NCBI RefSeq assembly: GCF_001469875.2
Contig: NZ_LOPW02000005.1
Coordinates: forward strand, 124,001 to 188,000
Length of the DNA: 64,000 nucleotides
DNA from: Haloferax marisrubri
GTDB lineage: Archaea > Halobacteriota > Halobacteria > Halobacteriales > Haloferacaceae
Reading direction: 5' to 3'
Shown here piece by piece: positions 37,897 through 41,794 of this stretch; position 1 is the stretch's first letter, and each line of letters starts with the position of its first letter. The translations under genes were made by a program, and so were the position numbers. The notes under the pieces are model-generated. The model was not told the origin of the DNA and ran no database searches. It worked only from the letters and a program-made list of their open reading frames with translations.

Positions 37897-38361
37897 TTAC
37901 TCGTAGAGCCAGGTCTCGTCGACGCGCTCGTAGTCGACGAGTTCGTCCTCGTCGAAGAAGAGCGCGATTTCGCGCTCGTTCGCGCCCTCGTCCTCGTGGT
38001 CGGAGCCGTGGATGACGTTCCGACCGAGGTCGAGACCGTAGTCACCGCGGATGGTGCCGGGTGCGGACTCTGCGGGGTCCGTCTCGCCCATCATGCGGCG
38101 GACCTGTCGCGTCGCGTCCTGACCTTCCCAGACCATCGCGAAGACGGGACCGGACGTGATGAAGTCGACGAGACCCTCGAAGAAGGGCTTGCCCTCGTGC
38201 TCGCCGTAGTGGTCGTGGGCGAGCTCCTCGTCGATCTGCATGAACTTGCCGCCGACCATCTTCAGACCGCGGTCCTCGAAGCGGGAGACGATGTCTCCGA
38301 TGAGGCCGCGCTGGACGCCGTCGGGCTTGACCATCACGAAGGTGCGCTCTGCGTCGGACAT
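37897..38361 (-). CDS. ndk: Nucleoside diphosphate kinase
   Basis: 154 residues, standard NDK length; transfers gamma-phosphate between nucleotides via a phosphohistidine. Active-site His in [20 protein letters not shown]-terminal [16 protein letters not shown], and [20 protein letters not shown] are diagnostic. Last gene of the rpl7ae-rps28e-rpl24e-ndk operon, a conserved archaeal order, overlapping rpl24e by one base. Confidence 0.96.
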
Positions 38362-38561
38362 CAGTTGTCCTCCGCCTTGCCGCTCGCGCGGCGGCCGGCC
38401 TCCGTCCACTCGAGGTCGCGGGCCTCGCGGCCGAGGAAGTAGTTCTTCTCGGCCTTCGAGTCCTTGAAGTGGAGGATGGTACCGTCGGTCTTGACGTACA
38501 TCGTGCCCGTGCCGGGCTCGATCTCTTCACCGCTGTAGTCGCACGTGCGCTTCTCGACCAT
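38361..38561 (-). CDS. rpl24e: 50S ribosomal protein L24e (eL24), zinc site degenerate
   Basis: 66 residues. The fold is clear: [17 protein letters not shown], then [20 protein letters not shown]. Related proteins such as Haloarcula L24e bind zinc through two Cys pairs. Here only C7 remains; the other three positions read S10, K33 and A37, so zinc cannot be bound. The reading frame is intact and lies in its normal operon, so the protein is presumably functional without metal. Confidence 0.94.
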
Positions 38562-38563
38562 TG

Positions 38564-38788
38564 TTACTGCCCTCCGATGGAGTCGGCGTCACGCTGGGTC
38601 TCGCGGAGCTGGAGGATGTCGCCCTCGCGGACGGGACCCAGCACGTTTCGCGTGATGATACGGCCCTGGTTGGAGCCTTCGCGGATGCGGCACTTGACCT
38701 GCATGGCCTCGCCGTGCATCCCAGTCTTTCCAACGACTTCGATGACTTCGGCAGGCGTCGAGTCGCTGGCTTGTTCGTCCGCGCTCAT
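38564..38788 (-). CDS. rps28e: 30S ribosomal protein S28e (eS28)
   Basis: 74 residues, an OB-fold protein in the small-subunit head near the E-site mRNA exit. Recognised by [20 protein letters not shown] and [18 protein letters not shown] and by the conserved terminal [11 protein letters not shown]. Two bases before rpl24e, six after rpl7ae. Confidence 0.97.
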
Positions 38789-38794
38789 GGTCGG

Positions 38795-39157
38795 TTATCG
38801 AAGGTCCTCGACCTTAGTCGCGATGTCCTCGACATCGTCGGACGCGTCGCCGGCGTCGACGATGGCGGCCGCGGCACTACCGACTTCGAGGCCGGCGGCG
38901 TGACCGATGTCGTCCTGCGTCTCGACGAAGATGAACGGAATGCCCTTCTCGTCGGCGAGTTCGGGCAGGTGCATGACGATCTCCTCGGGGGAGACGTCTT
39001 CCGCGATGAGGACGAGCTGGGCGTTGCCCCGCTCGATGGACTTGGTCGTTTCGTTGGTTCCTTTCTTCACGATACCAGTATCTCGGGCGACCTCGAGCGC
39101 CTCGACGGCGCTGTCAGCGAGGTCGGCCGGTACGTCGAAGTCTACGTAAACAGCCAT
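38795..39157 (-). CDS. rpl7ae: 50S ribosomal protein L7Ae (kink-turn binding protein)
   Basis: 120 residues. L7Ae binds kink-turns in 23S rRNA, box C/D and H/ACA guide RNAs and RNase P RNA. The RNA-binding motif is in [21 protein letters not shown] near residue 30, and the loop selecting the kink-turn is [19 protein letters not shown] near residue 75. It has an unusually long leader (about 120 bases) holding a candidate kink-turn, and a Shine-Dalgarno-like AGGTGA seven bases before the ATG. First gene of its operon. Confidence 0.97.
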
Positions 39158-39193
39158 TGTTGTTCACCTATATCCTGCTCGCGGGCTCGACTC

Positions 39194-39254
39194 CCTCGCC
39201 GGTATCACACCGGTCGGTCGGTCGCGACCGGTCAACGATTTCCCTACGGCGAGG
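39194..39254 (-). promoter_or_regulatory. Candidate kink-turn in the rpl7ae leader
   Basis: Read as RNA (minus strand). Outer stem CCUCGCCG/CGGCGAGG (39247-39254 with 39194-39201). Short NC stem GU/AC (39235-39236 with 39202-39203). Then U-G-A opposite G-A-U (39232-39234 with 39204-39206), giving sheared G-A and A-G pairs plus a U-U pair. A three-base bulge UGU (39207-39209) and a seven-pair C stem CCGGUCG/CGACCGG (39225-39231 with 39210-39216) complete it. This is the standard kink-turn layout of L7Ae sites. A ten-base bulge separates the NC and outer stems. Confidence 0.62.
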
Positions 39255-39303
39255 AGGTTCATCAACCCCGGACAGGCTGTAACCACTCTTTGCTCCGGCC
39301 CCC

Positions 39304-39310
39304 ATAAAAG
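39304..39310 (-). promoter_or_regulatory. TATA box of the rpl7ae operon
   Basis: CTTTTAT on the minus strand; the next plausible start of transcription is near 39280, about 120 bases ahead of the ATG. No nearer TATA box is seen, so the mRNA has a long leader. Confidence 0.5.
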
Positions 39311-39529: not shown

Positions 39530-41794
39530 ATGACCAGACTCGGCGACGACCCCGACGTCGAGGCGCTCGCCGCCGCCCGCCGCGAGGAGGCGCTGGCGAC
39601 GAACCAGCGACGCCTCCTCGTCCTCGCCGGCGACCGGGACGCCGGCATCGACGCCGCCTTCGACGCGGTCCGCGGGGCCGACGTGCCCGACGACGAGGTG
39701 ACGTTCGTCACCGCCCGGGAGGGTTTTCGCTTCCACCGCGTCGAACCGAAGCGCGCCTCGTCGCTCCTCGGGACGACCCGGACGCTCGTCGTCCTCGACG
39801 CCCACGAGGAGTTCTCGGCGAACGCGCTCGGCCGCGTCGCCGGCGCGGTCGACGGCGGCGGCCTGCTCGTTTTGCTCACCCCCTCTCTCGACGAGTGGGC
39901 GGTCCGCCGCGACTCCTTCGACGAGCGATTGGCCGTCCCGCCCTTTTCCGTCGGCGACGTGACCGGCCGCTTCCGCGGCCGACTCGTCTCGACGCTCCGG
40001 GACCACCCCGGCGTCGCTCTCGTGGACCTCGATTCGGGGACCGTCGAGCGCGACGGCGCGTACCGACAGGGAATCAGTTTCGACGCCGCCCCACCGCGGG
40101 TGCCGAGAGAGAAAGACCGCCGGTTCCCGCGGCGCGCCTACGAGAACTGCCTCACCGCCGACCAGTCCGACGCGCTCGCTGCCCTCGAAGCCCTGTCCGA
40201 ACCGGGAACCGCCGTCGTCGTGGAGGCCGACCGCGGCCGCGGGAAGTCGAGCGCCGCGGGCCTCGCCGCCGGAAGCCTCGCGGCCGAGGGCGCGGACGTG
40301 GTCGTGACCGCGCCCGGAAAGCGAAACGCCGCCGAGGTGTTCGCCCGCGCCGAGCGACTCCTCTCCGAACTCGACGCGCTCCGTGAGGGCGGCGCGGACG
40401 ACTTCGATATCGTGTCCGAACGCGGCGGTCGGGTCCGCTACGTCCCGCCGACCGAGGCTGGCGACGTGGCGGCCGACGCCGACGCGCTCGTCGTGGACGA
40501 GGCGGCCGCCCTGCCCGTCAGGCTCCTCGAATCGTTCCTCGCCGCGCCCGCGGTCGCCTTCTGTACGACCGTCCGCGGCTACGAGGGCGCGGGTCGCGGC
40601 TTCGCCGTCCGCTTCCGCGACCGCCTCGACGACGCGGACCGCGAGGTGACCGACGCGCGCCTCGACGACCCGATTCGCTACGCCGCCGGCGACCCCGTCG
40701 AGTCGTGGACGTTCCGCGCGCTCCTCCTCGACGCCCGGCCCCCGGTGGACCAACTCGTCGCGGACGCGACGCCGGAGTCCGCGTCCTACCGGGCGCTTTC
40801 GCCCGACGACCTACTGGCGGACGAGCACCTGTTGCGCGAAGCGTTCGGTCTGCTCGTCCTCGCGCACTACCGGACCGAGCCGGACGACCTCGCTCGCCTC
40901 CTCGACGCCCCGAACCTGACGCTCCGGGCGCTCACCCACGATGGGCGCGTCGTCTCGGTCGCGCTCCTCGCGCGCGAGGGCGGCCTCGACGCCGACACCC
41001 GCCGGCACATGTACGACGGCGGCCGCATCCGCGGGAACATGCTCCCCGACGTGTTCACGAGTCAACTCCGCGACGAGGACGCGGGCGTCCCCGTCGGCTA
41101 CCGCGTGATGCGTATCGCCACTCACCACGCGGTCCGGTCGTCGGGCCTCGGCTCGCGGCTCCTCTCGGAGATACGCGACGAGTTCGCGGGCGACGCGGAC
41201 TACCTCGGCGTCGGCTTCGGCGCGACGCCCGAACTCCTCTCGTTTTGGCGCGACAACGGCTACGGCACGGTCCACCTCTCGACCACCAGAAACGACACCA
41301 GCGGCGAGTACTCGGCGCTCATGATGCGCCCCCTGTCGCCCGCCGGCCGCGACCTCCGCGACCGCCACGCGGCGTGGTTCCGCGGCCGCGTCGGCGACGT
41401 GCTCGGCGACGCCCTCTTGGACCTCGACGCCGACGTGGCGCGGGCCGCCCTCGCCGCCGTCGATACCGCCGCCGAACCGGACCTCTCCGAGTACGAGTGG
41501 CGCGTCGTCGTCGGCGCGTCCTACGGCCCGGGGCTCTACACGACCGCGCCCGGCGCGTTCCGGCGACTCGGACTCGCGCACCTCACGAATCCGGGCCGGG
41601 CCTCGCTCACGCCCAGAGAGGAACGATTGCTCGTCCGCAAGGTCCTCCAGACGCGGCCGTGGGACGCCGTCGCCGACGAACTCGACTTCCACTCGACCGC
41701 GGGGGCCATGCGCGCGCTCGGCGACGCCTACGAACCGCTCGTGGACGAGTACGGCACCGACGCGGCCCGCGAGGAACGCGATCGATTCCGGTGA
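39530..41794 (+). CDS. tmcA: tRNA(Met) cytidine acetyltransferase TmcA
   Basis: 754 residues. Makes N4-acetylcytidine in tRNA (and in archaea possibly other RNAs) using ATP and acetyl-CoA. An N-terminal DUF1726-type domain is followed by an RNA helicase-like module with P-loop EADRGRGKSSAAGLAAG near residue 235 and VDEAAALPV near 323. A GNAT acetyltransferase domain follows (YRVMRIATHHAVRSSGLGSRLL, near residue 523), and then a C-terminal tRNA-binding region. Divergent from rpl7ae. Confidence 0.95.
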   Translation: MTRLGDDPDVEALAAARREEALATNQRRLLVLAGDRDAGIDAAFDAVRGADVPDDEVTFVTAREGFRFHRVEPKRASSLLGTTRTLVVLDAHEEFSANALGRVAGAVDGGGLLVLLTPSLDEWAVRRDSFDERLAVPPFSVGDVTGRFRGRLVSTLRDHPGVALVDLDSGTVERDGAYRQGISFDAAPPRVPREKDRRFPRRAYENCLTADQSDALAALEALSEPGTAVVVEADRGRGKSSAAGLAAGSLAAEGADVVVTAPGKRNAAEVFARAERLLSELDALREGGADDFDIVSERGGRVRYVPPTEAGDVAADADALVVDEAAALPVRLLESFLAAPAVAFCTTVRGYEGAGRGFAVRFRDRLDDADREVTDARLDDPIRYAAGDPVESWTFRALLLDARPPVDQLVADATPESASYRALSPDDLLADEHLLREAFGLLVLAHYRTEPDDLARLLDAPNLTLRALTHDGRVVSVALLAREGGLDADTRRHMYDGGRIRGNMLPDVFTSQLRDEDAGVPVGYRVMRIATHHAVRSSGLGSRLLSEIRDEFAGDADYLGVGFGATPELLSFWRDNGYGTVHLSTTRNDTSGEYSALMMRPLSPAGRDLRDRHAAWFRGRVGDVLGDALLDLDADVARAALAAVDTAAEPDLSEYEWRVVVGASYGPGLYTTAPGAFRRLGLAHLTNPGRASLTPREERLLVRKVLQTRPWDAVADELDFHSTAGAMRALGDAYEPLVDEYGTDAAREERDRFR

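Follow-up and report, generated by a model that had tools for sequence, protein, structure and literature searches.

The 64,000-nucleotide stretch of Haloferax marisrubri DNA analysed here (the window) carries an rpl7ae–rps28e–rpl24e–ndk operon on its minus strand, preceded by a structured leader. The leader RNA is read from the same strand, and the coordinates given for it in the initial annotation are correct. The product of rpl7ae is a near relative of L7Ae proteins of solved structure, among them proteins in complex with kink-turns. The gene order is complete in 79 of 80 haloarchaeal loci, with rpl7ae as the first gene. The longest ndk open reading frame starts upstream and overlaps rpl24e; because the NDK domain begins only at residue 21, translation probably starts at an ATG further downstream. 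The divergent neighbour of the operon (39530–41794, plus strand) encodes TmcA, the tRNA-Met cytidine acetyltransferase. The features of the locus are as follows.

39301–39310, minus: TATA-like promoter element CTTTTATGGG of rpl7ae, at a spacing to P1 that is kept among leaders
39158–39283, minus: entire conserved rpl7ae leader element, matched by covariance model R2
39265–39276, minus: P1 5′ strand (C-helix) CCUGUCCGGGGU, with compensatory changes; 94.7% of cells in alignment A2 paired
39259–39264, minus: kink-turn bulged strand, bulge UGAU (39264–39261) and GA (39260–39259); GA in 111 of 111 leaders
39247–39256, minus: P2 5′ strand (NC-helix) CUCCUCGCCG, with compensatory changes in the inner five pairs
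39241–39245, minus: AGGGA motif (AGGRA) after the P2 5′ strand, at a near-fixed position in 105 of 109 leaders
39202–39240, minus: variable tip hairpin, differing in sequence and length among Haloferax species
39191–39201, minus: P2 3′ strand CGGCGAGGGAG, covarying
39187–39188, minus: GA of the kink-turn non-bulged strand, in 108 of 109 assigned leaders
39174–39186, minus: P1 3′ strand, GCCC-[G bulge]-CGAGCAGG, covarying
39164–39169, minus: Shine–Dalgarno (SD) sequence AGGUGA, 4 nt past P1 in the window leader
38795–39157, minus: rpl7ae (L7Ae/eL8), the proposed repressor; Pfam Ribosomal_L7Ae PF01248, E 1.1e-25
38564–38788, minus: rps28e; Pfam PF01200, E 1.6e-29
38361–38561, minus: rpl24e; Pfam PF01246, E 1.7e-21
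37897–38409, minus: ndk, longest open reading frame; Pfam NDK, E 2.2e-56, residues 21–156 covered

A long rpl7ae leader had been claimed in the initial annotation, and this is borne out by a conserved TATA-like element at a fixed distance from P1: among the 83 leaders with a recognised promoter pattern, 80 have it 27–28 nt 5′ of P1. As the promoter-to-P1 spacing is constant, the message is predicted to start, probably, a few bases 5′ of P1, and the same spacing supports a predicted leader of about 120 nt. In H. volcanii, 72% of transcripts are leaderless (PMC4983044). Haloarchaea also share a UACA sequence directly 5′ of P1 (39277–39283, minus strand), close to where transcription probably begins. 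The full-length leader has only a moderate folding advantage over shuffled sequences (z −2.05). The folding energy predicted without protein is −51.6 kcal/mol for the window leader and −42.4 kcal/mol for another leader, L116; both P1 and P2 are GC-rich.

From 5′ to 3′, the element is composed of UACA-gCCUGnnCGGGGU (P1), the UGAU bulge, GA, one base, P2, the AGGRA motif and the variable tip, followed by P2′, N-Y, GA, GCCC-[A/G/C bulge]-CGnGCAGG (P1′), the SD and the AUG, with a total length of about 90–130 nt or more. P1 consists of 12 bp; one nucleotide bulges out four pairs beneath the kink-turn, and the 3′ strand of P1 ends at or just 5′ of the SD. The SD-like motif starts between −3 and +4, counted from the end of P1, and most often at −2, such that in the majority of relatives it shares the final 1–2 nt of P1. 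The end of P1 is 10–17 nt from the AUG; the element is thus located in the l7ae 5′ UTR, adjoining the SD. P2 is found in two registers (95 versus 14 leaders), which differ in which 3′ base bulges. The AGG(G/A)A motif resembles an SD sequence, and no pairing partner for it was found in the leaders. A pairing with the 5′ CCUG, picked out by eye, was set aside: its bases are too invariant to judge, and the fourth base lacks covariation.

The element was traced by gathering 147 rpl7ae loci (80 with named organisms) and extracting the leader from each. The 117 distinct upstream stretches include 111 distinct elements with the motif, drawn from more than 30 halobacterial genera. Five loci lack it: L097 lies on a truncated contig, L128, L129 and L133 are divergent lineages with a short hairpin, and L131 has neither motif nor short hairpin. 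In the window, model R2 matches 39283–39155 with 71.8 bits (E 1.8e-26), the second-best match scoring 12.6 bits. Scanning 39 sampled genomes with the same model gave a single strong match at the start of rpl7ae in 34, weak matches only in 2 and no match in 3, and among 148 sampled genomes of the phylum strong matches are confined to the order. No strong match away from rpl7ae was seen in the genomes sampled. Weaker matches (for example, G357:C50 and G000:C10) are not 5′ of l7ae, and the two inspected show no relation to that gene. No Rfam covariance model matched, whether the gathering threshold or an E value of up to 5 was applied. In families outside the main group, l7ae is preceded by a short hairpin in which one strand carries GAU-GA and the opposite strand has GA directly ahead of the SD, in agreement with the GAU bulge and tandem G:A published for l7ae UTRs of other archaea (PMC6298567); these leaders are probably simpler relatives of the haloarchaeal switch. 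In several leaders from other families of the phylum (within L167–L186), a GATGA...TGATGA repeat precedes the SD hairpin and could give two alternative bulged strands.

The helices flanking the kink-turn core, P1 (C-helix) and P2 (NC-helix), each covary. Loci were filtered before pair counting by a motif list drawn up by eye, and L083 and L130, in which the 3′ GA is not automatically assignable, were excluded from per-sequence pair statistics. In A2, a MAFFT alignment of the 41 short-tip members scored against the proposed structure, 91.1% of cells are paired, compared with only 39–49% in slid versions. Double-change cells number 96 versus 30.6 in shuffles, and none of 500 shuffles reaches 96; the covariation score is 0.367, compared with 0.174 for shuffled and at most 0.110 for slid alignments. 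Change events were counted on a tree of the coding sequences, giving 39 double compensatory events for P1 (1–7 with a slid partner) and 22 for P2, the latter in the inner five pairs. The P2 register was picked for each sequence, a choice that favours pairing; pairing is 0.952, compared with at most 0.890 in shuffles given the same choice.

The kink-turn core is located between P1 and P2. Opposed GA/GA after a bulge, the standard mark of a kink-turn, is present in nearly all of the leaders examined, and the bulge always ends in U (its length is 4 nt in 98 of the 111 and 3 nt in the other 13). No substitution is seen on the gene tree at the bulge U, the 5′ G, the 5′ A or the 3′ A, and a single one at the 3′ G, against 9–15 at the flanking bases 27, 28, 78 and 79. 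Such a pattern indicates strong selection on a kink-turn core at the P1/P2 joint. The 3′ GA is replaced by AA in L144 and, by eye, in L083. Exceptional leaders fix the register of the kink-turn: Natronomonas has UGU-GA, L143/L055 have GGGU-CAU-GA / GA-ACCC, and L132 has GGGU-GGU-GA-GGAGCCACCG...CGGUGGCUCC-GA-GCCC, in which P2 forms 10 perfect pairs flush on the GA/GA and the bulge is 3 nt.

The initial annotation had placed a kink-turn on the leader of this operon; a structured leader with a kink-turn is indeed present, but the particular kink-turn drawn is not the conserved one, which lies lower in the hairpin. The outer eight-pair stem of that drawing, CCUCGCCG/CGGCGAGG, is real: it is P2, and it covaries. 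P1, the GAUGA...GA kink-turn atop it and the covariation of the P1 and P2 stems had been missed. The drawn structure, GUUGA-CCGGUCG...CGACCGG-UGU-GAUAC, is present at 39202–39236 but sits in the variable tip and is not conserved. In favour of its being the L7Ae site, the motif is well formed, with a 7-bp stem, a UGU bulge, GA/GA, a U-U and two pairs, and shuffling this tip yields a similar kink-turn in only 0.6% of cases when a 6-bp stem is required (5.9% with 4 bp). It is limited to a clade of H. gibbonsii-like species with near-identical tips (L001–L008; named carriers are H. gibbonsii, H. denitrificans, H. sulfurifontis and H. massiliensis), for which it could be an extra site. When its GA pairs were followed across Haloferax, however, no opposed GA/GA of this kind was found in the tips of H. 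larsenii, H. mucosum, H. marinum or H. profundi, and any such tip kink-turn is present in 3 of 60 long tips. Loss of the GA pairs in other Haloferax species is the outcome that the initial annotation had itself named as refuting its proposal. It is missing from nearly all other haloarchaea, whereas the P1/P2 kink-turn is universal, and it is distant from the SD, making it very unlikely to be the site at which L7Ae acts.

A different objection concerns the joint itself. Because the bulge is mostly 4 nt (UGAU) and RNAalifold prefers ordinary U24–G80 and G25–Y79 pairs there, an unkinked form competes with the kink-turn: the joint would be a continuous helix with small bulges (those two pairs, with A26 bulged), and the leader would simply be a hairpin or thermometer that sequesters the SD, perhaps with another protein such as S28e or L24e bound to it. 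Single-sequence folding draws the same pairs, and a pyrimidine predominates at position 79, compatible with G-C or G-U. However, A26, G80 and A81 are nearly invariant, beyond the need of plain pairing, and position 79 has undergone 11 changes and is a purine in 5 of 107 leaders, with no compensation at G25. The L132 stem set flush on GA/GA also argues against a continuous helix, and there is less ambiguity in the short hairpins that related families carry. We thus regard an unkinked joint as unlikely. The UGAUGA and YGA sequences beside a terminal stem also recall boxes C and D, as if the leader were a box C/D sRNA, or its precursor, within the 5′ UTR. The alignment has no conserved C′/D′ pair, the interior is a covarying hairpin with no guide, and strong matches occur solely at rpl7ae in the genomes sampled. 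A box C/D-style register using the first GA of UUGAUGA was rejected, as that GA is dispensable, being absent from Natronomonas (UGUGA) and L143. It is extremely improbable that the leader is such an sRNA or its precursor.

Because the conserved leader fold carries the L7Ae-binding shape, L7Ae very probably curbs its own synthesis. The reading we favour, and consider likely by analogy with known systems, is that of a haloarchaea-wide rpl7ae leader with a kink-turn that is bound by L7Ae and limits its production. L7Ae in excess of its rRNA and sRNA sites would bind the leader kink-turn; bound L7Ae would bend and lock the stem, thereby blocking the 30S subunit at the adjoining SD; and translation of rpl7ae, and probably of rps28e, rpl24e and ndk, would fall. 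The present data show the element with its location and helices, the nucleotides of the kink-turn that do not vary, and the operon; for binding, repression and SD occlusion we infer from Sulfolobus and Archaeoglobus. As the stems are GC-rich and predicted to be pre-folded, and the kink is 12 bp from the SD, the switch may bend a standing hairpin. A version of this model in which both stems stay formed at all times and the sole effect of L7Ae is to kink the joint, with P2 folding back, seems improbable. The AGGRA loop would then reach the SD end of P1 and serve as a ribosome dock or decoy, and repression would operate by tertiary folding, not by masking and unmasking of the SD.

To our knowledge, few cis-regulatory RNAs are known in archaea. 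Almost all Halobacteria genomes examined retain the rpl7ae leader element, which shows covariation sufficient to define it and is directly testable in H. volcanii, a genetically tractable species. Autoregulation through a leader kink-turn is itself published; new here are the correct site, the complete structure, its covariation and the spread of the element.

Daume et al. 2017 (PMC5539422) report that L7Ae represses translation via a kink-turn in the l7ae leader in Sulfolobus, and that, of 121 archaeal l7ae leaders aligned, only those of the Sulfolobales are highly conserved. The same authors marked candidate strands in H. volcanii, one of them further upstream, and saw repression by Sulfolobus L7Ae when a reporter in E. 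coli carried about 50 bp of this leader (PMC5539422). The suggestion that a haloarchaeal case would newly extend L7Ae leaders is thus overtaken, H. volcanii having been both surveyed and reporter-tested. That upstream strand may be the same as the present 5′ strand. The last 50 nt of the window leader contain the 3′ GA, and the native 5′ kink-turn strand, about 109 nt before the AUG, is absent from them; a 50-bp test piece therefore does not equal the native element.

Eckert and Weinberg 2020 described archaeal leaders for S15, eL15 and L4, and a haloarchaeal L7Ae leader is absent from their table of new leaders (PMC7247131). Those leaders are likewise supported by covariation and located before ribosomal protein genes, the S15 one in Halobacteria (PMC7247131), but they concern other proteins. 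The kink-turn of the yeast L30e mRNA differs in being eukaryotic and in also acting on splicing. Kt-7 and other 23S rRNA kink-turns share the bulge and GA/GA core; no mimicry of 23S beyond this core was found, longer leader words being absent from the 23S of another haloarchaeon. No LSU (23S) rRNA match was found in the window's own assembly, although it is rated 99% complete, and the rRNA operons are probably absent from its contigs.

The closest known counterparts are the L7Ae-autoregulated l7ae leaders of S. acidocaldarius, A. fulgidus and other archaea, which precede the same gene, lie in the 5′ UTR by the SD and have a bulge ending in U with GA/GA; l7ae UTRs of other archaea have a GAU bulge and tandem G:A (PMC6298567). 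The haloarchaeal element differs from the published l7ae leaders in its 12-bp GC-rich P1 with a single-nucleotide bulge, its kink-turn bulge of usually 4 nt, its long P2, AGGRA motif and variable tip, and its overall length. In Archaeoglobus, the leader folds upon L7Ae and the SD is occluded (PMC6298567). The A. fulgidus model holds the leader to be unstructured without L7Ae, whereas the haloarchaeal leader is predicted to be strongly folded on its own, suggesting a departure from that model.
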